Shown here: piece by piece, positions 30,950 through 55,049 of the stretch
How the letters are laid out: each line of letters begins with the position of its first letter
Position numbering within the stretch: position 1 is the stretch's first letter
Assembly: GCF_030530745.1 (NCBI RefSeq)
Contig: NZ_JAUMUI010000005.1
Location: 1-64,000 of the forward strand
Origin: Neisseria sp.
GTDB lineage: Bacteria > Pseudomonadota > Gammaproteobacteria > Burkholderiales > Neisseriaceae
DNA length: 64,000 nucleotides
Reading direction: 5' to 3'
The notes under the pieces: generated by a model
What the model was told of the DNA's origin: nothing
The model's input: the letters and a program-made list of their open reading frames with translations, nothing else
Databases searched by the model: none
Made by a program: the position numbers and the translations under genes

Positions 30950-31460
30950 AAAAACCTGCTTTATTTCCTTAATTTACAGCCCTATCCTGTCGGCACGCTT
31001 TGTTTCCATAATAAAGAAAATCAAATTTTGTTTACCCGAAATTTATGCAATTTAGATAAAATATACGGTACAGCCATGCTCGCAACGGCAGAAACCCAAG
31101 CAGAGCGTGCCTTCCACCGGCATATACCCTGCAGTTTGCTGCCTTCGTTGCCAAGCCGAACAATTCATGCATATATGAAAAAACTGCTTTTATATAAAAT
31201 ATGCATACCTCTTCGGAGTGGATAAAGCTTGATTTTCTTAACAATATCAACACCTCGACAGACAGGCCTGTTTATGCCATAAACCATATAGGAAAATATT
31301 GCAAAACATATGCATATGGCTATAGGGTAAATAAACTCAAACCATTATTTTCAAAAAAAAAAATAGTAATAAAACTTTGGAAACAATAACTAGACAACAT
31401 GCTCTAAGCAGGCAGATACACCTTGAAACGAGGGGTGTCTGTTTTCTTTTTTGTTTTTTT
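30950..31460. other. AT-rich gene-free stretch upstream of the bacteriocin-like gene
   Basis: About 500 bp much richer in A/T than its neighbours, with poly-A near 31351-31361 and several TATAAA/TATGCATA stretches. Short frames here lack ribosome sites and family features. The composition suggests acquired DNA or a large regulatory region. Confidence 0.5.
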
Positions 31461-31473
31461 AAGGAGTATGATT

Positions 31474-31704
31474 ATGAAAGAATTGAATGCCACCGAATTG
31501 AAACAGGTTAGCGGCGGTGTTGAGCCGATGACTTTGTTTAACCTAGCTGTAGGTGCGGTAACCCTCCTCTCCGCAGCTCAGACACATCGCAAAGGAATTA
31601 AGCAAGCTATCAGAGGGGCCAAACGCAATTATAGGACAAGTATCAGGAATTTCCGTAGAGGAAACGGGGGAAGTGCCGTATACGTAGGCTCTACTTTTCA
31701 CTAA
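31474..31704 (+). CDS. double-glycine leader bacteriocin-like peptide
   Basis: A 76-aa precursor from the ATG at 31474, which has an AAGGAG ribosome site 7 nt upstream. The first 15 residues, MKELNATELKQVSGG, are a classical double-glycine leader that a C39-peptidase ABC transporter would cut. The predicted 61-aa mature peptide starts VEPMTLFNLAVGAVTLLSAA (hydrophobic) and turns very basic (RKGIKQAIRGAKRNYRTSIR), with a Gly-rich end. That is an amphipathic, membrane-active profile. No immunity, transporter or modification gene lies nearby. A signalling peptide is an alternative. Confidence 0.75.
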   Translation: MKELNATELKQVSGGVEPMTLFNLAVGAVTLLSAAQTHRKGIKQAIRGAKRNYRTSIRNFRRGNGGSAVYVGSTFH

Positions 31705-31784
31705 AAGCGATGTACCAATACGCAACCGGTAGGGCAGATGCGACTAACGCCCAAACGGCATAACTGCAAATATACCCCTACCCC

Positions 31785-31819
31785 AACGCCGTCTGAAATA
31801 TTTTCAGACGGCGTTTTGC
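31785..31819 (+). terminator. terminator after the bacteriocin-like gene
   Basis: A 14-bp perfect stem (31785-31798 with 31802-31815) based on a DUS variant, AACGCCGTCTGAAA, followed by TT. Confidence 0.65.
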
Positions 31820-31966
31820 AGCAAGCGTAGCCTGCATAATCCACACCACCGCATGCGTGGCTGCGCCACACACCCTACCGCCGATTCAACGTTTGCCGGC
31901 TTCAGGCGCAGCAAGCGTAACCTGCATAATCCACACCACCGCGTGCATGGCTGCGCCACACACCCT
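31818..31966. repeat. 59-bp tandem repeat, two copies
   Basis: Copies at 31818-31876 and 31908-31966 (period 90 bp) are nearly identical, starting GCAGCAAGCGTA and ending GCTGCGCCACACACCCT. Three base changes are visible: one G/A near the start and an exchange within the GCATGCG/GCGTGCA segment. The 357-bp gap between the peptide gene and frdD otherwise contains only DUS hairpins. Confidence 0.7.
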
Positions 31967-32008
31967 TGGGCACGCACGCGTTGTTCGGGGTAGCGAAATC
32001 CATACATA

Positions 32009-32035
32009 AGGCCGTCTGAAAGTTTCAGACGGCCT
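32009..32035 (-). terminator. frd operon terminator
   Basis: AGGCCGTCTGAAA (32009-32021), one spacer base, TTTCAGACGGCCT (32023-32035), 26 bp beyond frdD. Confidence 0.65.
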
Positions 32036-32061
32036 GTTGCATCACTTTTACCTAAAAGGCT

Positions 32062-32412
32062 TTAAAACCAGCCTTTGAGCAAAGTAAAAACAAACACCAC
32101 CACGGCAAAAGCGTAAAAGCCCAAGCGGGTGCGGTTGCCTACATGAACGTGCATATCGTGCAGAATATAGTAGAAACGGTGTACGCCGTGCCACAAGATG
32201 GTAAACACCACGGCGCACAGCACCAGATACACCAATTTGTTGCTCACAAAACCGTGCACGCTGTCGTAAAAATCGGCCGGGCTGCCCAATATGCCGAACG
32301 GCAGCAGCAGGCACAACACCACCAGCACAGGTGCGAGGATGATGGCGGCAACGGTGCCGCCGGCGGAGAAAATGCCCCAATACAAAGGCTTCATGTGTTT
32401 GTTGCTCATCAT
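32062..32412 (-). CDS. frdD: fumarate reductase membrane subunit D
   Basis: A 116-aa hydrophobic anchor with three membrane helices. It matches E. coli FrdD in the N-terminal YWGIFSAGGTVAAIILAPV and in the HRFYYILHDMHVHVG loop. With FrdC it holds the catalytic FrdAB at the inner membrane and forms the menaquinol site; it carries no haem. It is the last gene of frdABCD. The second Met of MMSNKH is an alternative start. Confidence 0.9.
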   Translation of the reverse strand: MMSNKHMKPLYWGIFSAGGTVAAIILAPVLVVLCLLLPFGILGSPADFYDSVHGFVSNKLVYLVLCAVVFTILWHGVHRFYYILHDMHVHVGNRTRLGFYAFAVVVFVFTLLKGWF

Positions 32413-32424
32413 TCTGCTCCTCTG

Positions 32425-32817
32425 TCAGGCCAATACGGCAACCAGTAACACCAACACTACGAACACTGCGGCAAACGCCCCCCAGCTGGCTTTCACCAAT
32501 ACCGCAGCAGGCACGAATTTTTCGCCTTTCTGTATCGGCATCGCCTTGGGCACGGCTTCAAACCAGGTTTTGCTGTTGAAACAGGCAGCGGCAACGGCCA
32601 ACAGGTTAAACAGCACCACCAGCGGGTTTGTCTGCATTTCCACCCAGCCGGCCCACGCATCAAAGCTGCCGGCCAACGAGGCTAAGCCGCAAAACAGATT
32701 GAGGGCGGCAAATGCCACCGGCACGCTGGTCAGCTCGCGCAGCATATAGAGTTTGAAAAAGCGGTTTTGCATATACCAATCGGCCGGCTGCTTGGCGGTA
32801 TAAGGTTTGCGGCTCAT
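32425..32817 (-). CDS. frdC: fumarate reductase membrane subunit C
   Basis: A 130-aa anchor with three membrane helices. The N-terminal RKPY and FFKLYMLRELTSVPVAF, plus the AWAGWVEMQTNPLVVLFNL and SKTWFEAVPKA blocks, match E. coli FrdC (131 aa). SdhC/SdhD haem-binding features are absent, which separates it from succinate dehydrogenase. It starts 1 bp after the frdB stop. Confidence 0.92.
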   Translation of the reverse strand: MSRKPYTAKQPADWYMQNRFFKLYMLRELTSVPVAFAALNLFCGLASLAGSFDAWAGWVEMQTNPLVVLFNLLAVAAACFNSKTWFEAVPKAMPIQKGEKFVPAAVLVKASWGAFAAVFVVLVLLVAVLA

Positions 32818-32818
32818 A

Positions 32819-33562
32819 TTACGCCTCCTCTTTTTTCAGGTTGGACAACGCCCAAAACGGCACGGCTGCGGCTTTGGCCTGCTGGATGGCGCCGGCGGGA
32901 TCAACGTGTTTCGGGCATACTTCCGAGCAGTAACCCACAAACGTGCACGGCCAAATGCCGTTTTCGCCGTTCATCACTTTAAAGCGTGCGGCTTTGCCGG
33001 TATCGCGGTTGTCGAGGTTGTAGCGGTGCGCCAGCGCGGTGGCGGCCGGGCCGAGAAAATCGGCGTTCAAACCCACCTGCGGGCAGGCCTGATAACACAG
33101 CATGCAATTGATGCACATGGTGTATTGCTTGAATTTGGCCAGCTCGGCAGGTGTTTGGCGGTATTCCTTATCGGCCAGCGCACGCGGGTTTTTGTTGATG
33201 ATATAGGGTTTGACCGACTCGAGTTTTTCGATAAACGGATCGGCATCCACAATCAAATCTTTTTCGATGGGAAACTGATCGAGCGCGCCCACGGTAATTT
33301 TACCTACCGCAGCATATTCGCGCACGAAAGTGGAACAGGCGAGTTTGGGTTCGCCGTTGACCACCATGCCGCACGAGCCGCACACTTCCATACGGCACGA
33401 CCAGCGGTAAGCCAGCTCCGGTTCGAAATCGTCTTTCACCAGCGCGAGTGCGTCCAGAATCGACATATCCTGCGTCCACTCGATATCGAACACCTGCGGC
33501 CACGGTTTTTCGTCGACACCCGGGCGGTAGCGCATCACTTCCAGTTTGATGGTATTGCTCAT
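32819..33562 (-). CDS. frdB: fumarate reductase iron-sulfur subunit
   Basis: A 247-aa electron-transfer subunit. The 2Fe-2S motif is CRMEVCGSCGMVVNGEPKLAC, the 4Fe-4S motif CINCMLCYQACP and the 3Fe-4S motif CTFVGYCSEVCPKHVDP; the last is typical of FrdB. It passes electrons from menaquinol to the FrdA flavin. Its ATG overlaps the frdA stop by 4 bp, so the two are translationally coupled. Confidence 0.96.
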   Translation of the reverse strand: MSNTIKLEVMRYRPGVDEKPWPQVFDIEWTQDMSILDALALVKDDFEPELAYRWSCRMEVCGSCGMVVNGEPKLACSTFVREYAAVGKITVGALDQFPIEKDLIVDADPFIEKLESVKPYIINKNPRALADKEYRQTPAELAKFKQYTMCINCMLCYQACPQVGLNADFLGPAATALAHRYNLDNRDTGKAARFKVMNGENGIWPCTFVGYCSEVCPKHVDPAGAIQQAKAAAVPFWALSNLKKEEA

Positions 33563-35331
33563 GATTTTTTCTCCCCTTCTGCACCGTAAACCCGTTTGGC
33601 GGGCTGCGATTTGGTGATTAACACGCTGCTGTATTCAATCTGCGGGGGTTCTTGGCCGCCGCGGTAAAAACTCAGGGTGTGTTTGAGGAAGTTTTCGTCG
33701 TCGCGATCGGGGAAATCCAAACGCTGGTGTGCGCCGCGCGACTCGGTGCGGGCGTCGGCCGAATAAATCATTGCCTCGGCCACATCCAACAGATAACCCA
33801 GTTCGATGGTGGTGAGCCAGTCGGTGTTGTAGGTGTCGGAATGGTCGGTTACGCGCACATTCTGATAGCGCGCTTTCAAATCGCGGATGGCGGCTTTGGC
33901 GCGCGCACCGTTTTCGGCGCTGCGGTAAATGCCCACTTCGGCTTCCATCATCGCGCCCAGTTCGCGGCGGATGTCGGCCGGTTTCTCAGTGCCGCCGGTA
34001 CGGTTTTTCAATTCGGCAAACGGTTGGTAAGCCTGCTCTGCCAACGCGGCGAACGCTTCGCGGCTCAAGCCGCTGCCGGCAGTTTGCGCGTGTTTCAGCG
34101 CATCTTCACCCGCCACTTTGCCGAATACGCACAGCTCGGCCAGCGAATTCGAACCCAAACGGTTGGCGCCGTGCAGGCCCACCGACGAACATTCGCCCAC
34201 GGCAAACAGCCCTTTGATGCGGGTTTCGCAACGCTGGTTGGTTTCGATGCCGCCCATGGTGTAGTGCGCGGTCGGGCGTACCGGAATCGGCTCGTGCACG
34301 GGATCGACGCCCACGAATTTCTGCGCCAGCGAGCGGATAAACGGCAGCCGCTCATTGATGAAGTCTTCGCCCAGATGGCGCAAATCCAAATGCACCGCAT
34401 CGCCGCGCGGCGTGCTGATGGTGCGGCCGGCTTTCCATTCGTGGTAGAACGCCTGCGACAGGCGGTCGCGCGGCCCCAGTTCCATATATTTGTTTTTCGG
34501 CTCGCCGATGGGCGTTTCCGGGCCTAAGCCGTAATCCTGCAAATAACGGTAGCCGTCTTTGTTCACCAAGATACCGCCTTCGCCGCGGCAGCCTTCGGTC
34601 ATCAGAATGCCCGAACCGGGCAGGCCGGTGGGGTGGTATTGAACAAACTCCATATCGCGCAGCGGCACGCCGTGGCGGTAGGCCATCGCCATGCCGTCGC
34701 CGGTTACGATGCCGCCGTTGGTGTTGAAAGCAAACACGCGCCCTGCACCGCCGGTGGCGATAATCACGCTTTTCGCCTGCACCGCGCGCACCGCGCCTTC
34801 TTGCAGGCCGTAACACAACACGCCGGCCAATTCGCCGTTGTCGATTAACAAATCAAGCGCGAAATGTTCGTCCAAGCGTTTGATGTTGGGATACTGCATT
34901 GAAGTTTGGAACAAAGTGTGCAGCATATGGAAGCCGGTTTTGTCTGCGGCAAACCAGGTGCGCGGAATCTTCATGCCGCCGAAACGGCGCACGTTGGCGC
35001 GGCCGTCCGGCAGGCGCGACCACGGGCAGCCCCAATGTTCCATCTGAATCATTTCTTCGGTGGCGTGCTCGACAAAATACTGCACCACATCCTGCTCGCA
35101 CAGCCAGTCGCCGCCCGAAACGGTGTCGTTGAAGTGGTTTTCGAGCGAATCGTCGTCGCGCACCACACCGGCCGAACCGCCTTCCGCCGCCACGGTGTGG
35201 CTGCGCATCGGATAAACTTTGGAAATCAGGTGTACGGTTTTGTCGGGTGCGGCGCGCGCGACTTCAATCGCCGCCCGCAAGCCCGCACCACCCGCGCCCA
35301 CAATCGCCACATCGGTTTGGATGATGTCCAT
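33559..35331 (-). CDS. frdA: fumarate reductase flavoprotein subunit
   Basis: A 590-aa catalytic subunit with covalent FAD that reduces fumarate to succinate in anaerobic respiration. The FAD motif is IVGAGGAGLRAAIE, the flavin-linking His is in RSHTVAAEGGSAG, and the active-site blocks include RPTAHYTMGGIETNQ and GLHGANRLGSNSLAEL. Sequence and gene order (A-B-C-D) match E. coli FrdA rather than SdhA. The ATG at 35331 has an AAGG ribosome site and aligns with E. coli; upstream in-frame ATGs exist. Confidence 0.95.
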   Translation of the reverse strand: MDIIQTDVAIVGAGGAGLRAAIEVARAAPDKTVHLISKVYPMRSHTVAAEGGSAGVVRDDDSLENHFNDTVSGGDWLCEQDVVQYFVEHATEEMIQMEHWGCPWSRLPDGRANVRRFGGMKIPRTWFAADKTGFHMLHTLFQTSMQYPNIKRLDEHFALDLLIDNGELAGVLCYGLQEGAVRAVQAKSVIIATGGAGRVFAFNTNGGIVTGDGMAMAYRHGVPLRDMEFVQYHPTGLPGSGILMTEGCRGEGGILVNKDGYRYLQDYGLGPETPIGEPKNKYMELGPRDRLSQAFYHEWKAGRTISTPRGDAVHLDLRHLGEDFINERLPFIRSLAQKFVGVDPVHEPIPVRPTAHYTMGGIETNQRCETRIKGLFAVGECSSVGLHGANRLGSNSLAELCVFGKVAGEDALKHAQTAGSGLSREAFAALAEQAYQPFAELKNRTGGTEKPADIRRELGAMMEAEVGIYRSAENGARAKAAIRDLKARYQNVRVTDHSDTYNTDWLTTIELGYLLDVAEAMIYSADARTESRGAHQRLDFPDRDDENFLKHTLSFYRGGQEPPQIEYSSVLITKSQPAKRVYGAEGEKKS

Positions 35332-35399
35332 ATTGTCTGCCTTTTCTTGTCGGTAGTCGGTTGTGTTATTAAACAACATTGTAAACAAATCCTGTAACT

Positions 35400-35416
35400 G
35401 CCTTTTGACAAAAGGC
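35400..35416. promoter_or_regulatory. palindrome upstream of frdA
   Basis: GCCTTTTGACAAAAGGC, a 7-bp perfect inverted repeat with a 3-base centre, about 70 bp before the frdA start. It could be an operator or an mRNA hairpin. The remaining sequence up to 35708 (377 bp in all) has two DUS and no gene. No convincing FNR site was found. Confidence 0.35.
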
Positions 35417-35708
35417 AAATTTAGCCGAATCTCGTCGGTTTTAACCGTAAAAAAGGCCGTCTGAAAGGGCGGCCCTGCCGAAATAAAGAAATCTAATGAA
35501 ACAAAATAAGAAACAAGCAAGCTGCCACTTCAAGCGGTATGGCTGTATTGCACGGTTCTGTTTGGTGCGGTTTAAAAGAAATTACATTTGGTTTAACAAC
35601 TCAAGGCCGTCTGAAAACTTATCACGCGTTATGCAAAGCGCGTTTTATACCCTTATGACTGAAGAATGCCGATGCCGGTTAATAGCGGCTATGATACCCG
35701 TCAACACA

Positions 35709-36233
35709 TCATTTCAATTGCCAAACCTCAAAAGCAGGCAGACATTTTTTTAATGCCAAACTGTTGGCAACGATGTTGCCGCAATCGCTCAGGCTCAATC
35801 CGGTTTCGGCAATCAGCAGGTTGGCGGGGCGGCCTGCGTGCAAACTCATGCGGATTCCGGCGGGAACAAACGGCAGTTTGTGGCGGGCGGCAAAAGCGGC
35901 GGCGCGGCGGTTGGCCAGTTTGAGCATAGGCGTGAGGGTAACGTCGAGATGAAAGCGGCGCACGCCCAAAACAATGATGCGGGCAGCAAACCAATCGGCT
36001 TCTTCGGTAAACACGTCCGGGCTGCGGCTGTCGAAATCATGACGCATGGCGGCAATCAGTGTGGCAACGGTGCGGATTTGCGGCAACAATGCCTCGCTCA
36101 CTTGGATACCGCCGGTTTGCGGCAGCCCGGTGGCGCATAAATCGCTGCGGCGGGTGCTGCCGTCAACAATCAGATGGCAGCGGTGCAAGGCGGTAGGTTG
36201 TGTTTGGGCGGTGTGTAAGGCGGCGGTTTTCAT
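35709..36233 (-). CDS. unknown protein behind an aromatic attenuator
   Basis: A 174-aa soluble protein from the ATG at 36233 (AGGAG ribosome site 6 nt upstream). It appears to be alpha/beta, with FHLDVTLTPMLKLANRRAAA in the middle and a C-terminal ETGLSLSDCGNIVANSLALK. No catalytic signature, signal peptide or membrane segment is recognised. The 202-bp leader encodes a peptide with nine aromatic residues and ends in a terminator. Expression should therefore depend on charged Phe/Tyr/Trp tRNA, which hints at a role in aromatic metabolism or uptake. Chorismate mutase, DAHP synthase and chorismate lyase motifs are absent. Confidence 0.7.
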   Translation of the reverse strand: MKTAALHTAQTQPTALHRCHLIVDGSTRRSDLCATGLPQTGGIQVSEALLPQIRTVATLIAAMRHDFDSRSPDVFTEEADWFAARIIVLGVRRFHLDVTLTPMLKLANRRAAAFAARHKLPFVPAGIRMSLHAGRPANLLIAETGLSLSDCGNIVANSLALKKCLPAFEVWQLK

Positions 36234-36296
36234 ATTCTGCTCCTGTTCGGTGTTTTTCATCTGTTTACAGGCGGCGGATTTTTAAAACCGACAAAA

Positions 36297-36320
36297 AGCC
36301 GCCTGAAAATTCGGGCGGCT
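36297..36320 (-). terminator. attenuator terminator
   Basis: On the minus strand AGCCGCC (36320-36314), a 10-nt loop and GGCGGCT (36303-36297) are followed by TTTTT. It lies between the leader-peptide stop and the unknown gene, 64 bp before its start. Confidence 0.7.
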
Positions 36321-36354
36321 CTGTTTCGCGTTTGCTTAAAGTTTATCCGGCATT

Positions 36355-36435
36355 TCAGACAAGCGCAAAAAAGTACCGCACGTTTGTGTGGTACCAATAA
36401 AAATAAGCAAAGGGGCGAATGTTTGAAATATTCAT
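36355..36435 (-). CDS. aromatic-rich leader peptide
   Basis: A 26-residue frame, ATG at 36435 and TGA at 36357-36355. It contains PFAYFYWYHTNVRYFF: four Phe, four Tyr and one Trp. The WYHTNVRY codons lie inside a hairpin (36373-36394), and a terminator follows at 36297-36320. This is the layout of pheA-type attenuators. No Shine-Dalgarno is present and the predicted transcription start is only 1-2 nt before the ATG, so translation may be leaderless. Confidence 0.65.
   Translation of the reverse strand: MNISNIRPFAYFYWYHTNVRYFFALV
36373..36394 (-). promoter_or_regulatory. leader pause hairpin
   Basis: On the minus strand GTACCACAC and GTGCGGTAC pair with one mismatch around a 4-nt loop, overlapping the Trp/Tyr codons of the leader and followed by TTTTTT. 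It may be the 1:2 pause stem. Its GCGGT segment can also pair with GCCGC of the terminator stem, a candidate antiterminator. Confidence 0.5.
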
Positions 36436-36442
36436 GGCACTA

Positions 36443-36471
36443 ATCTAAAGCAAAGCATCGGAAGTTGTCAA
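36443..36471 (-). promoter_or_regulatory. promoter of the attenuated gene
   Basis: On the minus strand a consensus TTGACA (36471-36466), a 17-bp spacer and TTAGAT (36448-36443), directly before the leader peptide. Confidence 0.6.
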
Positions 36472-36504
36472 TATCCATTGTGCAATTGCAGCAGTAATTC
36501 CATT

Positions 36505-37128
36505 TTATTTCTCTCCCCATTTCGGTATCAACATGTGCGGTATGCGCAATTGGTCGAGGATGCGCGCCACCACAAAGTCCACCAAATCGCCGACCGACTT
36601 CGGATGGTGGTAAAACCCGGGCGAAGGCGGCAAGATAACCGCACCCAAACGGGCAAGAGCGAGCAGGTTTTCGAGATGCAGCGCCGACAGCGGCGCTTCA
36701 CGCGGTACCACCACCAGCGGACGGCGCTCTTTCAGGCACACATCTGCGGCGCGTTCGATCAAATGGTCGGAAGTACCGTGCGCTACCGCCGCCACAACGC
36801 CCATACTGGCCGGGCAGATAATCATGGCATCGGCGGGGTTGGTGCCCGAAGCCGGCGGCGCGAACCATTCGTCTTTGCCGAACACCCGCAACTGCTGCGC
36901 AGAAACGCCGTATTTTTCGCATAACAACGCCTGACAGGCGGCGGGCGACGAAGGCAGGGCAAGGTTTGCCTCCTGCTGCGCCACCACTTGCGCAGCTTGG
37001 GAATACAGCAGCCACACGGTTTTACCGCTTTGCAGCAGGCATTCGAGCAGGCGGATACCGTAGGGCATGCCCGATGCGCCGGTAAAGGCCAGGGTAACGG
37101 TTTGTATCGGATGCGGCTGGGTATTCAT
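36505..37128 (-). CDS. ubiX: flavin prenyltransferase
   Basis: Makes prenylated FMN, the cofactor of the UbiD decarboxylase in ubiquinone synthesis. The protein is 207 aa. The N-terminal LAFTGASGMPYGIRLLECLL is the FMN-binding loop, followed by ICPASMGVVAAVAHGTSDHL and the KERRPLVVVPREAPLSALHL block with the catalytic Arg/Glu. The FYHHPKSVGDLVDFVVARIL tail is typical. The unknown attenuated gene follows on the same strand with its own promoter. Confidence 0.95.
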   Translation of the reverse strand: MNTQPHPIQTVTLAFTGASGMPYGIRLLECLLQSGKTVWLLYSQAAQVVAQQEANLALPSSPAACQALLCEKYGVSAQQLRVFGKDEWFAPPASGTNPADAMIICPASMGVVAAVAHGTSDHLIERAADVCLKERRPLVVVPREAPLSALHLENLLALARLGAVILPPSPGFYHHPKSVGDLVDFVVARILDQLRIPHMLIPKWGEK

Positions 37129-37263
37129 AGGCAGGGGAATCTGTAAAAACGGTGAATATAATACGGTGTTGTTTTCAGACGGCCGATAAACTTACAAACG
37201 GCCCGGATATGGCGCACCGTGAAAATTTAGCAAAGGCCGTCTGAAAAACGGTTTGATTTGTTT

Positions 37264-37614
37264 TCAATCGACGCTGCGTTCGATTTCTACACCCACTTCG
37301 CGCACATCGGGCAGAATACCGGGCTTCACAATCCTCACCCGCACCCATAGTGCGCCGAAGTCGGACAACACCAAATCGGCAACGTGTTCCGCCAATGCTT
37401 CGAGCAGCAAAAAACGCTGGTTTTTCAGGCTGGCGCGCACGGCTTCGCACACGTCGGCATAATGTACGGTGTTGTTGATATCGTCGTCCGCACCCGATTT
37501 TTCAGGCACGCCGACAACCAGATCCAACAGCAGGGTTTGCGGCTGCTCGCGCTCCCAATCGTACACGCCGATCAAGGTTTCGGCTTTCATGCCGTGTAAA
37601 AAAATTTTATCCAT
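37264..37614 (-). CDS. folB: dihydroneopterin aldolase
   Basis: Folate pathway enzyme that cleaves dihydroneopterin to 6-hydroxymethyl-dihydropterin and glycolaldehyde. The protein is 116 aa from the ATG at 37614. The N-terminal MDKIFLHGMKAETLIGVYDWERE is the substrate-binding region, VHYADVCEAVR and LLLEALAEHVADLVL form the tunnel fold, and the catalytic Lys is likely in VRIVKPGILPDVREVGVEIER. It is divergent from plsY with a 61-bp gap. A start at 37635 is possible. Confidence 0.94.
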   Translation of the reverse strand: MDKIFLHGMKAETLIGVYDWEREQPQTLLLDLVVGVPEKSGADDDINNTVHYADVCEAVRASLKNQRFLLLEALAEHVADLVLSDFGALWVRVRIVKPGILPDVREVGVEIERSVD

Positions 37615-37675
37615 TTTCAGTTGCGCCGTTTTCACGTTAAAATCAGTTTTCCATTCTAAAACAAAAGTTGCTGTA

Positions 37676-38308
37676 ATGTTTAATTTCTTGGTTGTAACAG
37701 CCGGTTATGTAATCGGCTCGCTTTCTTTTGCGGTGATTGTGTCAAAATTTTACGGCATGGCCGACCCGCGCACCTACGGCTCGGGCAACCCCGGTGCCAC
37801 CAATGTTTTACGCAGCGGCCAGAAAAAAGCGGCGGCCTTAACCCTGTTGGGCGATGCGCTCAAAGGCTTGGTGGCCGTGCTGCTGGCAAAATGGCTGCAA
37901 GAGCCGCTCGGTTTGGATTCCGCAACCATCGCCTTGGTTGCCGTGGCCGCTCTGGCAGGCCATATGTGGCCGGTATTCTTCAACTTCAAAGGCGGCAAAG
38001 GCGTGGCCACCGCTTTGGGCGTGCTGCTCGCACTATCATGGCCGGCCGCTTTGGTTTGCGCCGCCGTTTGGCTGGTGATGGCTTTCGGCTTTAAAGTGTC
38101 TTCACTGGCTGCGCTGACCGCCGCCGTCATCAGCCCACTGGCGGCCTGGTTCTTTATGCCCTACCCTTCGTGGGCTTTGTCGACGGTTGTTATCGCCCTC
38201 TTGGTGCTTTACCGGCATAAAAGCAATATCAGCAACCTGTTGAGCGGGAAAGAGGGGAAAATCGGCGAAAAAACCACCGTACAACAACCGGATAAAGAAA
38301 CCGAATAA
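37676..38308 (+). CDS. plsY: acyl-phosphate glycerol-3-phosphate acyltransferase
   Basis: Inner-membrane enzyme that acylates glycerol-3-phosphate with acyl-phosphate, the first step of phospholipid synthesis. The protein is 210 aa with five membrane segments. Conserved loops are YGSGNPGATNVLRSG and FNFKGGKGVATALGVLLAL, plus the LVLYRHKSNISNLLSGKE C-terminus. The partner plsX is not in the window. The folB-plsY neighbourhood is common. Confidence 0.96.
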   Translation: MFNFLVVTAGYVIGSLSFAVIVSKFYGMADPRTYGSGNPGATNVLRSGQKKAAALTLLGDALKGLVAVLLAKWLQEPLGLDSATIALVAVAALAGHMWPVFFNFKGGKGVATALGVLLALSWPAALVCAAVWLVMAFGFKVSSLAALTAAVISPLAAWFFMPYPSWALSTVVIALLVLYRHKSNISNLLSGKEGKIGEKTTVQQPDKETE

Positions 38309-38375
38309 AACCAATCACAAAGCAGCCCGGGCTGCTTTTTTACGTTTGACTCAAAGGCAAAGGATACGGAACGAA

Positions 38376-39884
38376 ATGACGGGCAAACACATGTGCTTTT
38401 CAAACGGCCTGAAAAAATATCTGGCCGCATCGGCCGCTTTTTTGATGTCGTCGTGCGCGCTGGTGCAATACCAGCCGTTGCAAACCATTCAAACCGTCGA
38501 TACCGGAAAAGGCTACCGCCTCGAAAAAAACTTCAACCGCGCCGGAGCCGACGATACTTTTGTAATACTGATGTTTTCCGGCGGCGGCACGCGTGCGGCG
38601 GCTTTGGGCTACGGCGTGCTGGAAGAGTTGAACCGCCAGAAAATCAATTTCGGCAGTAAAGAACAAAGCCTGCTCGAAAGCGTCGATTTGGTTTACGGCG
38701 TTTCGGGCGGTTCGGTGCTGGCGGCCTATTTTTCGCTGCACGGCAAAGAAACCGTTCCCGCGTTCGAGCGCCGCTTTTTAAAGCAGAACTTCCAGCGGCA
38801 GTTTACCAAGCAGGTATTTTCGTTTGCCAACCTGCCCCGTCTTACCTCACCCGAATACGGCCGCGGCGACCTGCTGCAGGAGCAGTTTGAAAACACCCTG
38901 TTCCGCAATGCCACTTTCGACGACCTCGACAAACGCCGAAAAGGCCCGTTTGCCGTTATTTCCGCCACCGACATGGCGGCGGGCAGCCGCTTGGATTTTA
39001 TTCAGGAACACTTCGACGCCATGTGTCTGAACCTGTCAGATTTGCGCATTGCCCGTGCTGTGGCCGCCTCCAGCGCCGTACCGCTCGTATTCAGCCCGAT
39101 TACGCTCAACAACAACGGCGGCAACTGCGGTTATGTGTTGCCCGAGCGCTTGCGGCATACGCCAACCAACGGCAGCGTAGGCAGGCTGCAGCAGCAAACC
39201 CGCCAAGAGCTTACCCACACTTACCACAGCCAATATAACGACAGCGCCAAACGCCCGTATATCCACCTGCTCGACGGCGGCCTCACCGACAACCTCGGCC
39301 TGCGCGGCGTGTTGGATATTGTTGATGCGCGCTCCGGCGAAGCCCTGCAAAAACAAGTAACCGCAGAAAATATCCGCCGCATCGTGATTATCAACGTGAA
39401 CGCACAAAACCAGATTACCAGCCGTATCGACCAATCGCCCGCCATTCCCGGCTTTGCCGACGTGGTGGCCGCCATTGTCGATATTCCCATCGACAAATAT
39501 TCGCAAGAATCTCTGCGGCGCTTCCGCGCTTTTGCCGACCAATGGAACGAAAACGCCGCCAAACAGCCCGACGGCGAAAAGCGCAGCATGTATTTCGTGA
39601 GCCTTAATCTGCGCGACCTGCCCGAATCGCAGCTGCGTAAAAACGTGTTGAACATCCCCACCACGTTTTACCTGCCCCATAACGACATCAACGATTTGAA
39701 ATCCGCCGCACGCGCCCTGCTGCAGCAATCGGGCGAATACAAGCGTCTGTTGAAGGATTTTTCGGCACAACCGGCGCAACCTGCCGAAACGGAAACAGCC
39801 CGGCCCGTATGGTTTGTGGGCGAAGGGCCGCAACTGCCCGGCAAAAGCGCCAAAACCGGTTATGATGCCCCGTGGGCGCAATAA
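38376..39884 (+). CDS. patatin-like phospholipase, predicted lipoprotein
   Basis: A 502-aa protein. The N-terminus looks like a lipoprotein signal (LAASAAFLMSSC, Cys near 28). The patatin domain has the oxyanion loop SGGGTRAAALG, the nucleophile elbow GVSGGS and the catalytic Asp in DGGLTDNLGL. The C-terminal third is polar and variable. It probably hydrolyses phospholipids at the envelope. Start candidates are 38346, 38376 and 38391; 38376 has the best upstream AAGGA. It is a lone gene. Confidence 0.85.
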   Translation: MTGKHMCFSNGLKKYLAASAAFLMSSCALVQYQPLQTIQTVDTGKGYRLEKNFNRAGADDTFVILMFSGGGTRAAALGYGVLEELNRQKINFGSKEQSLLESVDLVYGVSGGSVLAAYFSLHGKETVPAFERRFLKQNFQRQFTKQVFSFANLPRLTSPEYGRGDLLQEQFENTLFRNATFDDLDKRRKGPFAVISATDMAAGSRLDFIQEHFDAMCLNLSDLRIARAVAASSAVPLVFSPITLNNNGGNCGYVLPERLRHTPTNGSVGRLQQQTRQELTHTYHSQYNDSAKRPYIHLLDGGLTDNLGLRGVLDIVDARSGEALQKQVTAENIRRIVIINVNAQNQITSRIDQSPAIPGFADVVAAIVDIPIDKYSQESLRRFRAFADQWNENAAKQPDGEKRSMYFVSLNLRDLPESQLRKNVLNIPTTFYLPHNDINDLKSAARALLQQSGEYKRLLKDFSAQPAQPAETETARPVWFVGEGPQLPGKSAKTGYDAPWAQ

Positions 39885-39943
39885 TGAAAGCACATTATTA
39901 AAAACCCGCCTGACTGATCAGGGCCCTCAGCAAAAACGGCTTA

Positions 39944-40003
39944 AGGCCGTCTGAAAACCGGCAGCGCGCAGTTTCTGCTGCGTCGGCAGTTTTCAGACGG
40001 CCT
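39944..40003. terminator. bidirectional DUS terminator between the patatin gene and pth
   Basis: A 15-bp perfect stem (39944-39958 with 39989-40003) with a 30-nt loop that itself folds. It separates two convergent genes. Confidence 0.6.
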
Positions 40004-40026
40004 GTTTCATCCGTTAAACAAAACAA

Positions 40027-40602
40027 TCACTTGCTGTGCAGAAACCGCACTGCTTCTTCCCACCCGCCCGACAAGACCAGCGGCAGCCCCTGCAGGGATT
40101 TGGCAACGGCATCTTCGATTGCCTGCCTCTCTTCCGCGCCGGGTTTGTTGAGCACATAGCCAACCACCAAATTGCGGTCGCCGGGGTGGCCGATACCCAA
40201 ACGCAGGCGGTAGAAATTCGGGGTGCCGAGCCTGGCTTGGATGTCTTTCAAACCGTTGTGGCCGCCGTTGCCGCCGCCGAGTTTGAAGCGGATGCGCCCG
40301 CAGGGGATATCAAGCTCGTCGTGCACCACCAGGATTTCTTCGGGCTTGATTTTGTAAAAAGAGGCTAATGCGGCCACGGCCTGGCCGGAGCGGTTCATAA
40401 AAGTGTTGGGTTTCAAGAGCCACACGTCGCCTTCGGGGCGCGCCGCTCTGGCGGTTTCGCCGAAGAATTTTTTTTCTTCTTTCAGCACGGCCTTCCAAGC
40501 CCAAGCCAATTCGTCGATAAACCAAAAGCCCGCGTTATGGCGGGTTTGGGCATATTCGGCGCCGGGGTTGCCCAGCCCCACGATTAATTTGATTTGCGGC
40601 AT
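40027..40602 (-). CDS. pth: peptidyl-tRNA hydrolase
   Basis: Frees tRNA from prematurely released peptidyl-tRNA; essential in bacteria. The protein is 191 aa. [20 protein letters not shown] holds the catalytic His, [13 protein letters not shown] is the substrate block, [12 protein letters not shown] the catalytic Asp region and [12 protein letters not shown] the tRNA-binding block. It is followed downstream by convergent DUS. Confidence 0.97.
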
Positions 40603-40613
40603 ATTGTATTGTT

Positions 40614-40647
40614 AAGGCCGTCTGAAAGAAACATTTCAGGCGGCCTT
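40614..40647 (-). terminator. ratA-rnfH terminator
   Basis: A 14-bp stem with one mismatch (40614-40627 with 40634-40647), an inverted DUS pair 19 bp after rnfH. Confidence 0.6.
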
Positions 40648-40665
40648 TGTTTCCTATATAAAAAA

Positions 40666-40947
40666 TCAGTTTTCTTTTTCTGCTTCAGCCCGTTTGCGGC
40701 GGGCTTCTTTGGGGTCGATAAGCAGGGGGCGGTAAACTTCTACGCGGTCTTTATCGCGCAGCACGGTGTGCTCTTTCACCGCTTTGCCGAAAATGCCCAA
40801 CGGCGCGTTGCACACATCTGCTTCGGGAAATTCCTGTGCGATGCGGCTTTGCAGCACGGCTTCGCGGGCGGTTGTTCCTTCCGGCACGCGCAGGGTTTGG
40901 AGCAGTTGCTTTTCTGCCGTGCCGTAAACAACTTCGATTTCAACCAT
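40666..40947 (-). CDS. rnfH: RnfH family ubiquitin-like protein
   Basis: A 93-aa beta-grasp protein (PF03658 type): VEIEVVYGTAEKQLLQTLRV at the N-terminus, GIFGKAVKEHTVLRDKDRVEVYRPLLIDPKEARR and a charged tail. It overlaps the end of ratA by 8 bp, the conserved ratA-rnfH (pasT-pasI) pair. It was once proposed as an antitoxin to RatA, but its role is unresolved. Confidence 0.9.
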   Translation of the reverse strand: MVEIEVVYGTAEKQLLQTLRVPEGTTAREAVLQSRIAQEFPEADVCNAPLGIFGKAVKEHTVLRDKDRVEVYRPLLIDPKEARRKRAEAEKEN

Positions 40948-41371
40948 AACGGCGGTCGGCCTCTTTCACGAATGCGTCCACCAACGTGCCCGAAAGATGG
41001 CTGAACACGGGTGAAATCAGGGTGGAAAGCAATGCGCTCGAAAAATCATATTGCAGCTTGAATTCGATTTTGCAGCAGTCGTCGCCCAGCGGAATGAATT
41101 TCCATGTGCCGTGCAGGGCTTTAAACGGCCCTTCGAGCAGATTAATGCGGATTTCGCGGCCGGGAACGTTGTGGTTGTGGGTGGCAAACGATTGCTGCAC
41201 GCCCATATAGTCCATAAACAGCCGCGCTTTCAGCCCGTTGCCGCTGCGCTCGATGATTTCGGTTTTGCTGTACCACGGCAGAAACTGCGGATAATCTTCC
41301 GCCCTGTCGACCAGCTCGAACATCTGTTCGGCGCTGTGCAGCACCAGCATATTTTTTTCTACGGTTTTCAT
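40940..41371 (-). CDS. ratA: RatA/Coq10-type START-domain protein
   Basis: A 143-aa SRPBCC-fold protein: VLHSAEQMFELVDRAEDYPQ, PWYSKTEIIERSGNGLKARL and LEGPFKALHGTWKFIPLG are the family blocks. E. coli RatA/PasT has been reported both as an inhibitor of 70S assembly and as a ubiquinone-linked Coq10 homologue that aids respiration and stress survival. Given the ubiE and ubiX genes, the ubiquinone role fits as well. It is translationally coupled to rnfH. Confidence 0.9.
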   Translation of the reverse strand: MKTVEKNMLVLHSAEQMFELVDRAEDYPQFLPWYSKTEIIERSGNGLKARLFMDYMGVQQSFATHNHNVPGREIRINLLEGPFKALHGTWKFIPLGDDCCKIEFKLQYDFSSALLSTLISPVFSHLSGTLVDAFVKEADRRYG

Positions 41372-54377: not shown

Positions 54378-55049
54378 TTAAAATTTGAAGTTCAACACAG
54401 GCCAGCCTTGAGCCTCGGCCTCCTGCTGCAACACTCCGTCGGGGTTGACGGCCACCGGGTCGCTCACCAGCCGCAGCAGCGGCAGGTCGTTTTTGGAATC
54501 GCTGTAAAAATAGGTTTTGCTGTAGCTTGCGAGCGTTTCGCCGCGTGCGGCCAGCCATTCGTTCAGGCGGGTGATTTTGCCTTCTTTCAGGCTGGGCGTG
54601 CCGACATAATTGCCGGTGTAACGGCCGTCTGAACCGGTTTCCAGTTGTGTGCCGATAATATTTTCGATACCGAACAGGTGGCAGATGGGGGTGATGATGA
54701 ATTCGTTGGTAGAGGAAATCACCAGCAGTTCGTCGCCCGCATTGCGGTGGCTTTCCACCAGCATTTTCTGCATGGGCGAAATATGCGGGGCGATAAACTC
54801 CGCCACAAATTCGCGGTGCATTTCAGCCAGCTCTTCCTTGCTGAAACGGCTGAGCGGCTCCAGATGGAACTTCAGAAACTCATCGATGTTCAAGCAGCCG
54901 TTTTGGTAGTCGCGGTAGAATTTGTCGTTTTGGGCGCGGGTGTATTCGGCATCGACCACGCCTTTCCGAATCAGGTATTGCGGCCACGAGTGGTCGGAAT
55001 CGGTGTTGATTAAGGTGTTGTCCAAATCGAAAATGGCGAGGTTTTTCAT
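54378..55049 (-). CDS. HAD-IB family phosphatase (SerB-like)
   Basis: A 223-aa haloacid dehalogenase-type hydrolase. Motif I is FDLDNTLINTDSDHSWPQYL, motif II SSTNEFI and motif III/IV YSDSKNDLPLL. The helical cap (about 30-115) fits the IB subclass, which includes phosphoserine phosphatases and phosphatases of lipid or histidinol type; the substrate is not assignable. The ATG at 55049 overlaps the hda stop by 4 bp, so the two are coupled. Confidence 0.9.
   Translation of the reverse strand: MKNLAIFDLDNTLINTDSDHSWPQYLIRKGVVDAEYTRAQNDKFYRDYQNGCLNIDEFLKFHLEPLSRFSKEELAEMHREFVAEFIAPHISPMQKMLVESHRNAGDELLVISSTNEFIITPICHLFGIENIIGTQLETGSDGRYTGNYVGTPSLKEGKITRLNEWLAARGETLASYSKTYFYSDSKNDLPLLRLVSDPVAVNPDGVLQQEAEAQGWPVLNFKF

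Follow-up and report, generated by a model that had tools for sequence, protein, structure and literature searches.

Why does a gene that encodes no known aromatic enzyme stand behind a leader peptide full of aromatic residues and a terminator? This question is raised by a locus on the minus strand of a 64,000-nt stretch of a Neisseria sp. genome (positions 1 to 64,000 of contig NZ_JAUMUI010000005.1, here called the window), where a short leader open reading frame (ORF) precedes the gene for a 174-aa protein. Ribosome-mediated attenuators are textbook devices of biosynthetic operons, and a preliminary description had seen in this locus the form of trp/pheA-type attenuation, with a consensus promoter, a 26-codon frame, two hairpins and the gene at 35709-36233, all of which we found in place by direct reading. 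We conclude that the locus probably carries a ribosome-mediated transcription attenuator which senses a shortage of charged Tyr-tRNA, together with Trp-tRNA and possibly Phe-tRNA, and which controls a single gene for a protein derived from tryptophanyl-tRNA synthetase (TrpRS). The computed support consists of the conservation of the leader, the covariation of the stems, the agreement between the position of the codons and the effect of stalling, the TrpRS-like predicted fold, the loss of catalytic motifs and the avoidance of tyrosine; what we infer is the regulatory response itself, that tyrosine is chiefly what it answers to, and what the protein does.

The leader comprises 26 codons from an ATG at 36435 to a TGA stop ending at 36355, and its peptide, MNISNIRPFAYFYWYHTNVRYFFALV, contains four Phe, four Tyr and one Trp. 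An ATG-started leader ORF was present in all 80 orthologous loci of the Neisseriaceae, 166-316 nt upstream of the gene for the 174-aa protein, in a search which allowed ORFs 140-330 nt upstream and required at least five aromatic residues and a YW-like core. Because the search itself demanded these features, the count has to be set against a background of other-frame ORFs: 66 of the 80 leaders have at least five aromatic codons among the eight around the Tyr-Trp pair, whereas among 110 other-frame ATG ORFs of 15-35 codons from the same upstream regions none had five aromatic codons in an eight-codon stretch and a single one had four. The Tyr-Trp pair occurs in 78/80 leaders and at least two Tyr in the block likewise in 78/80, while Phe is found in the block of 67 and is absent from that of 13. 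When 56 non-redundant leaders were aligned on Tyr-Trp (L092 and L094, which lack the pair, were excluded from the position table and from alignment A3), the Tyr codon was TAT in 47 and TAC in nine, the residue being kept while the codon varies, and a further Tyr stood at position +2 in 49. Conservation of the frame across relatives, which the preliminary description had proposed as a check, thus extends to every one of these loci and to all 30 examined in a second family. The clustered codons stand in a leader ORF which, judged by its sequence, is predicted to be translated.

How widely is this arrangement distributed? Of 150 related genomes, 80 gave a homologue of the 174-aa protein; every one of these belongs to the Neisseriaceae (family f1), where 80 of the 84 listed genomes have the gene and G034, G055, G103 and G110 are listed without it. 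No homologue came up in profile searches of 368 further genomes of the class or, outside the genus, of 398 genomes of the phylum. An order-level profile search of 300 genomes returned eight matches, in a family (f28) which we take, as a guess, to be the Chromobacteriaceae, and a search of that family at E 0.01 matched 60 of 61 genomes and all ten genera, so that the idea of a gene confined to one family was overturned. Among the 30 best-scoring of 64 matches from f28, all 30 have a leader whose core reads YW(Y/F)R and, 35-40 nt before its ATG, a TTGAC box, and a hairpin of the GCCGCC...GGCGGC type was read after the leader, with single changes in two of the 30 (L244 and L250). Among the first eight f28 loci, one of which shares a genome with one of the 30, the leader ORF was listed in five, and in three the choice of start cut the ORF off; three of the eight, all of genus g39, whose lower-scoring matches are otherwise not among the 30, have a leader reading YYYGY, with Trp lost and Tyr kept. 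Four f28 genomes (G1107, G1109, G1116 and G1117) contain two matches each to the TrpRS-derived protein.

The RNA of the leader region can be divided into strands 1 to 4, of which 1 and 2 form hairpin 1 (36395-36372), overlapping the Trp/Tyr codons, and 3 and 4 form the terminator hairpin (36320-36297), followed by a U-run to 36293. Over an alignment of 58 sequences, pairing in helices 1:2 and 3:4 held in 90.4% of cells, as against 30.5-55.7% when the partners were slid by 1-3 columns. Changes on both sides of a pair were seen in 40 cells, compared with 12.7 expected by shuffling, and affected 7 of 17 pairs; one terminator pair is GC in 33/58 sequences and AU in 22/58. Both stems therefore covary, another point on which the preliminary description had made its reading depend. 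It had also suggested that a GCGGU segment of the first stem pairs with GCCGC of the terminator as an antiterminator. This short pairing does hold in 95.2% of cells, but it is nearly invariant, uninformative alone and merely part of a long interrupted helix, in which the U-rich end of strand 2 and the GCG that follows it pair with a GCGAAA-like block preceding the terminator. The evidence for the antiterminator is this extension and not the core. The 2:3 duplex had a mean energy of -19.8 kcal/mol, compared with -14.1 for dinucleotide-shuffled partners; it ranked at no more than 5 of 100 shuffles in 37/58 sequences. Once the invariant core was taken out, a sequence's own partner still outdid the cross-clade average in 43/58. 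An antiterminator and an intrinsic terminator that exclude each other are thus predicted before the gene. A covariance model of the element (R2) found one strong copy, of at least 49.1 bits, in 54 of 55 f1 genomes, the next match scoring 42.1; the sole genome without one, G034, is also one in which the gene was not found. A downstream GCCGCC segment pairs with the 3' arm of the terminator in 84.1% of cells, with 48 both-side changes as against 23.2 by shuffling. This fifth strand may have a role after read-through or may reflect repeats like the DNA uptake sequence, GCCGTCTGAA, which the segment (36268-36275 region) resembles in some loci.

Where would a stalled ribosome act? In our model the ribosome footprint was masked for each A-site codon, reaching at its 3' end 15 nt beyond the first base of the P site, and the RNA was folded to just before strand 4. 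In the window the probability of 2:3 pairing, P(2:3), was 1.0 for a stall on any of codons 11-15 (Tyr, Phe, Tyr, Trp, Tyr), 0.5 on His16 and 0.02 on Thr17; for codons 6-10 it was 0.87-0.92, Phe9 (0.92) included. Stalls on Tyr21, Phe22 and Phe23 gave 0.0, because these codons lie in strand 2, so that the nine aromatic codons counted in the preliminary description are all there but are not equivalent. Across the f1 leaders the mean P(2:3) at positions -2 to +2 of the Tyr in Tyr-Trp was 0.96, 0.98, 0.99, 0.99 and 0.98, falling to 0.52 at +3, 0.13 at +4 and at most 0.01 from +10, and the share of aromatic codons at -2 to +2 was 0.71, 0.83, 1.00, 1.00 and 0.86, followed by 0.09 and 0.00. Since the leaders were aligned on the pair at positions 0 and +1, the share of about 1.00 there arises by construction, and the informative positions are -2, -1 and +2 and the joint drop at +3. 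The aromatic nature of codons -2, -1 and 0 is not forced by pairing, since they are outside hairpin 1. In f28 the response was 0.98, 0.99, 0.99, 0.99 and 0.95 at -2 to +2, 0.59 at +3 and 0.30 at +4, with the same downstream edge. In this model the control codons occupy positions where a stalled ribosome would mask strand 1 and leave strand 2 free, with a sharp downstream and a shallow upstream edge. The predictions that follow from attenuation of the trp/pheA form have thus held up: the frame is conserved, the stems covary and the aromatic block ends where stalling loses its effect. A chance ORF before an ordinary terminator, for which nothing speaks beyond its small size, is contradicted by the leader in 80/80 and 30/30 loci, by the covariation and by the match of codons and stalling, and has next to no probability. 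Could the peptide itself sense free tyrosine or tryptophan and arrest the ribosome in the manner of TnaC? The YWY(H/R) core and an Arg downstream of it are strongly conserved, as such an arrest would have it. However, the conserved downstream residues coincide with pairing strands, Phe, Tyr and Trp replace one another at the upstream aromatic positions, YW(Y/F)R is kept between different flanks in the second family, and stalling by an excess of amino acid fits poorly with the avoidance of tyrosine described below; we consider nascent-peptide arrest highly improbable.

According to the attenuation model, transcription would begin at or near the leader ATG. With ample Tyr- and Trp-tRNA, the ribosome would pass YFYWY toward the stop and cover strand 2, the 3:4 terminator would form and transcription would end. 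A ribosome stalled with its A site on codons 11-15 would mask strand 1, so that 2:3 could pair ahead of the synthesis of strand 4 and transcription would continue into the gene. Without translation 1:2 and 3:4 would form, leaving the gene off; these are the helices in the minimum free energy (MFE) fold of the untranslated window leader. Several results weigh against this model. The upstream edge of the stall response is shallow, with f1 means of 0.66-0.70 at -7 to -3, and in f28 there is no upstream edge (0.86-0.96 at -6 to -3). Aromatic shares of 0.66, 0.49 and 0.75 recur at +8 to +10, within strand 2, where a stall brings no benefit, and over 24 positions the stall response and the aromatic share correlate with a Spearman rho of 0.56 (P 0.005). 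The GCGGU:GCCGC core is too invariant for covariation evidence, the advantage of own 2:3 partners is missing in 15/58 sequences, and sequences within a family are not independent. Lastly, the equilibrium MFE fold of the complete window leader favours 3:4 even with strand 1 masked, so that the switch must be kinetic, with 2:3 forming first.

The preliminary description had taken the lack of a Shine-Dalgarno sequence as a sign of leaderless translation. In the window the promoter reads TTGACA (36471-36466), a 17-bp spacer and TTAGAT (36448-36443), followed after 7 nt by the ATG at 36435, and this spacing fits the claim there and in about half of the loci; the window leader has no Shine-Dalgarno-like bases before it. 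A TTGAC box stands 29-41 nt before the leader ATG in 40 loci, of which the window is one; two of these 40, and six of the other 40, have Shine-Dalgarno-like bases ahead of the leader. In a simple promoter scan the best -10 box ended 6-11 nt before the leader ATG in 39/80 loci, 31-49 nt before it in 30 and at least 58 nt before it in 11; the scan picked a different site for the window itself, and the count of TTGAC boxes follows a separate, simpler rule. On this count we take leaderless initiation to be plausible for roughly half of the loci and not for all, the promoter elsewhere probably lying further upstream. Between ubiX and the leader some relatives, such as L043 and L081, have a hydrophobic ORF of about 26 residues (MEGLQQLINLIAAFAHWILTILDALF in L043), whose last codons contain the TTGACA and TTTTAA boxes of the leader in several Neisseria; the window holds an 11-codon remnant (36468-36503, minus strand). 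This ORF was not counted as part of the system, since even a loose pattern fits just 28/80 loci.

A start at the leader ATG recalls another attenuator. In Sinorhizobium, according to passages of PMC7298713, the transcript rnTrpL has its first nucleotides at the start codon (ATG) of the ORF for the leader peptide peTrpL, which has Trp codons, and controls trpE(G) by terminator-based attenuation. Our locus shares the terminator and, if its initiation is indeed leaderless, would share the start as well. A search of positions 31000-41000 against Rfam gave five matches up to E 1, all below threshold and none of them a T-box; one, to RcsR1 (RF02552), lies over the element at 27.8 bits, its gathering score being 60. 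RcsR1 is rnTrpL. Might the terminated short RNA or the leader peptide then be a trans-acting product in its own right, as in Sinorhizobium? A leaderless start, as described for rnTrpL in PMC7298713, and the weak RcsR1 match would suit this, but matches of like weakness occur elsewhere in the window and the element stays before one gene family, so that we regard a trans-acting RNA or peptide as improbable.

Which amino acid is sensed? The 79 Neisseriaceae proteins compared (L118, for which no start codon was found, was left out of composition and motif counts) contain 41 Tyr among 13,603 residues, and 48 of them have none. Relative to 62 window ORFs of at least 110 aa, a background that includes the gene itself, Tyr is the most depleted residue (0.11x), followed by Gly (0.34x) and Lys (0.54x); Trp stands at 0.75x and Phe at 1.04x. 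One other ORF among these 62, 54645-55013 on the plus strand (122 aa), is free of Tyr. A protein needed under scarcity does well to avoid the scarce residue, and we therefore read Tyr as the main signal and Trp as the second. The second family makes this less clear: its protein has 0.67% Tyr as against 2.34% in 58 neighbouring ORFs, a weaker depletion, Trp is not depleted (2.06% versus 1.23%), Phe is (1.69% versus 3.52%), and the most depleted of six residues compared is Lys (0.47% versus 3.23%). Could the attenuator answer to all aromatic amino acids alike, or chiefly to Phe or to Trp, in the way of pheL/trpL-type leaders? A single RNA serves every codon in the block, the Tyr-Trp pair and Phe are each found in most leaders, the protein resembles TrpRS and the f28 protein is also depleted in Phe. 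On the other hand, nearly all leaders have two or more Tyr while Phe can be missing from the block, the three YYYGY loci keep Tyr and lose Trp, and the Neisseriaceae protein is depleted in Tyr and not in Phe. An equal response, or one mainly to Phe or Trp, is an appreciable possibility that we nonetheless doubt.

What, then, is the protein? Neither Pfam nor NCBIfam has a family for it and no trp or phe biosynthesis gene stands under the leader; the "unknown function" of the preliminary description has to be qualified, as the gene can now be linked to TrpRS. The window protein matched no Pfam and no NCBIfam family at E 0.1, and Pfam, NCBIfam and PHROG scans of the protein family gave nothing credible, 60 members yielding scattered weak matches (best 5.9e-4, in 3/60). 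The NCBIfam model of TrpRS, TIGR00233, was not matched by the window protein and is not among the families matched by the 60 members, and nothing in a viral structure library matched at E 0.001. For both predicted models, however, 49 of the 50 Foldseek matches listed were TrpRS, and the predicted fold covers much of the catalytic core of that enzyme; other families may also match, as their absence from such lists does not rule them out. In hhalign the profiles of both families scored highest with TrpRS, not with tyrosyl- (TyrRS) or glutamyl-tRNA synthetase (GluRS), and the Neisseriaceae and joint alignments set an AAR(I/L) segment onto the (S/T)ADIL segment of TrpRS; AAR(I/V/L) is present in 77/79 family proteins where the compared TrpRS have (S/T/A)AD. 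The protein has about half the length of TrpRS and lacks HIGH, KMSKS and G(R/E)DQ. A HIGH-type motif (H[ILVM]G[HN]) occurs in 0/79 Neisseriaceae and 0/30 f28 proteins, as against 45/45 TrpRS, a TIGN-like pattern being seen in 1/79, and KMSKS in 0/79 and 0/30; the 45 TrpRS had been selected by KMSKS (one of 46 loci was dropped), and their 45/45 for that motif is no control. The loss of HIGH and KMSKS argues against tRNA charging, and the genome of the window has its own trpS (at G000:C17). In two other genomes trpS was matched in separate pieces, at G015:C1:1315932-1316919 with an in-frame TGA and at G024:C1:1659544-1660842 as two pieces of one 469-aa frame.

Descent from TrpRS has its own difficulties. 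Sequence similarity is low, the Foldseek E-values are modest (2.9e-3 and 5.2e-3), a PDB sequence search with the family profile did not find TrpRS and gave two weak matches to chromatin-reader chains (E 0.06), and hhalign assigned probabilities of no more than 2.8-8.1%. When profiles were shuffled, 60 each for TyrRS and GluRS, the scores reached 26.2 (one TyrRS profile) and 23.5, and TrpRS itself reaches 102.7 against TyrRS and 38.9 against GluRS, both well in excess of 26.8. These values would suit a protein which stands behind a genuine attenuator and shares merely a Rossmann-like arrangement with TrpRS. The near-uniform Foldseek result, the preference of both family profiles for TrpRS and the alignment of AAR(I/L) with (S/T)ADIL speak against this, and we judge a merely Rossmann-like resemblance to be fairly unlikely.

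Comparison with known systems helps to place a TrpRS-derived protein under such a leader. With the attenuators of trpL and pheL our locus shares a leader ORF with control codons, the 1:2, 2:3 and 3:4 alternatives and an intrinsic terminator before the gene. It differs in its mixed Tyr/Trp/Phe block, in which Tyr is the most constant, in the possible fifth strand and in its target, which is not a biosynthetic operon; the leader of a trp or pheA operon controls genes of Trp or Phe biosynthesis, and none is found in that place here. Ribosome-mediated attenuation of trp is described in parts of PMC7298713, and the Sinorhizobium leader treated there differs in its target, trpE(G), and its Trp codons, the RcsR1 match of our element being below the gathering score. 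The closest precedents are, in passages of Naville and Gautheret 2010 (PMC2965389), histidine leader peptides predicted in bacilli before hisZ and a hisS paralogue, HisZ being a regulatory subunit. There, too, a leader peptide is predicted to control a synthetase paralogue, although in Firmicutes, for another amino acid and another synthetase, whereas here the paralogue is small, a fragment in which HIGH and KMSKS are missing. In logic, anti-TRAP (rtpA) of Bacillus subtilis (PMC11255114) is also close, being a small protein with no enzymatic role whose level goes up with uncharged tRNA; the likeness is in logic only, since anti-TRAP is a zinc protein under T-box control, and we claim no sequence likeness. 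By analogy with HisZ and anti-TRAP, our protein would most likely be a starvation-induced effector that acts in trans on aromatic metabolism, on TrpRS or TyrRS, or on their tRNAs. Taken further, and with slightly more doubt than belief, the system could be a Tyr/Trp-starvation relay of a new type, present in two families. A catalytically dead fragment of TrpRS, so poor in Tyr that it could be made while tyrosine is short, would then be released by a Tyr-Trp attenuator, in many loci a leaderless one, and its target in trans would be aromatic metabolism or else the machinery for charging Tyr- and Trp-tRNA.

Table. Features of the leader, the attenuator and the controlled gene
Feature	Coordinates	Strand	Remarks
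-35 box TTGACA	36466..36471	-	Read directly; TTGAC box 29-41 nt before leader ATG in 40/80 loci
-10 box TTAGAT	36443..36448	-	Ends 7 nt before leader ATG; leaderless or nearly so
Leader ORF MNISNIRPFAYFYWYHTNVRYFFALV	36355..36435	-	Without Shine-Dalgarno sequence; conserved in 80/80 loci
Control codons Tyr11 Phe12 Tyr13 Trp14 Tyr15	36391..36405	-	P(2:3) = 1.0 for a stall on any of them
Strand 1, 5' arm of hairpin 1:2	36386..36395	-	Both-side changes in 5/10 pairs
Strand 2	36364..36381	-	3' arm of 1:2 at 36381-36372; antiterminator arm at 36379-36364
Strand 3, antiterminator partner (GCG-AAA block and GCCGC)	36315..36330	-	Duplex -22.7 kcal/mol in the window
Terminator hairpin 3:4	36297..36320	-	95.0% of cells paired
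Terminator U-run	36293..36297	-	Read directly
Possible strand 5, complementary to terminator 3' arm	36268..36275	-	84.1% of cells paired
Shine-Dalgarno AGGAG of structural gene	36240..36244	-	Read directly
Gene for 174-aa TrpRS-derived, predicted non-catalytic protein	35709..36233	-	Predicted models, profile and motif comparison

A gene of the UbiX family (36505-37128) lies upstream of the leader and fumarate reductase genes lie downstream of the gene for the 174-aa protein. In 20 loci inspected by eye no downstream gene recurs throughout, close relatives sharing some, and the gene seems to stand alone. N. dentiae is a named close relative, and its version of the protein is 93% identical. Elsewhere in the window, a small ORF at 31474-31704 on the plus strand begins with MKELNATELKQVSGG, which looks like a double-glycine bacteriocin-type leader, and a 67-aa frame at 31804-32007 on the minus strand has a repeated GCVAQP..RWCGLCRLRLL unit and no Pfam match.

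What is new here is a block of Tyr/Trp codons that two families conserve and, under its control as proposed, a TrpRS-derived target that avoids tyrosine. A literature search, mostly outside subscription journals, yielded no report of the leader or the protein in the portions of the sources covered, and no word starting with "attenuat" occurs in the covered main text of a gonococcal transcriptome paper (PMC4176332). The attenuator guards an orphan gene whose product seems to be descended from a synthetase for an amino acid that is itself among those sensed, which points to a pseudo-synthetase as a starvation effector, and limitation of Tyr or Trp offers a concrete handle on a widespread protein that belongs to no Pfam or NCBIfam family. 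The aromatic and trp genes of Neisseria are dispersed, as passages of PMC1173090 have it, and this would favour an effector acting in trans over an attenuator of an operon. If it is true, the relay would stand in for operon-wide control in Neisseria, and it suggests a way in which aromatic genes could be coordinated in bacteria where they lie scattered.
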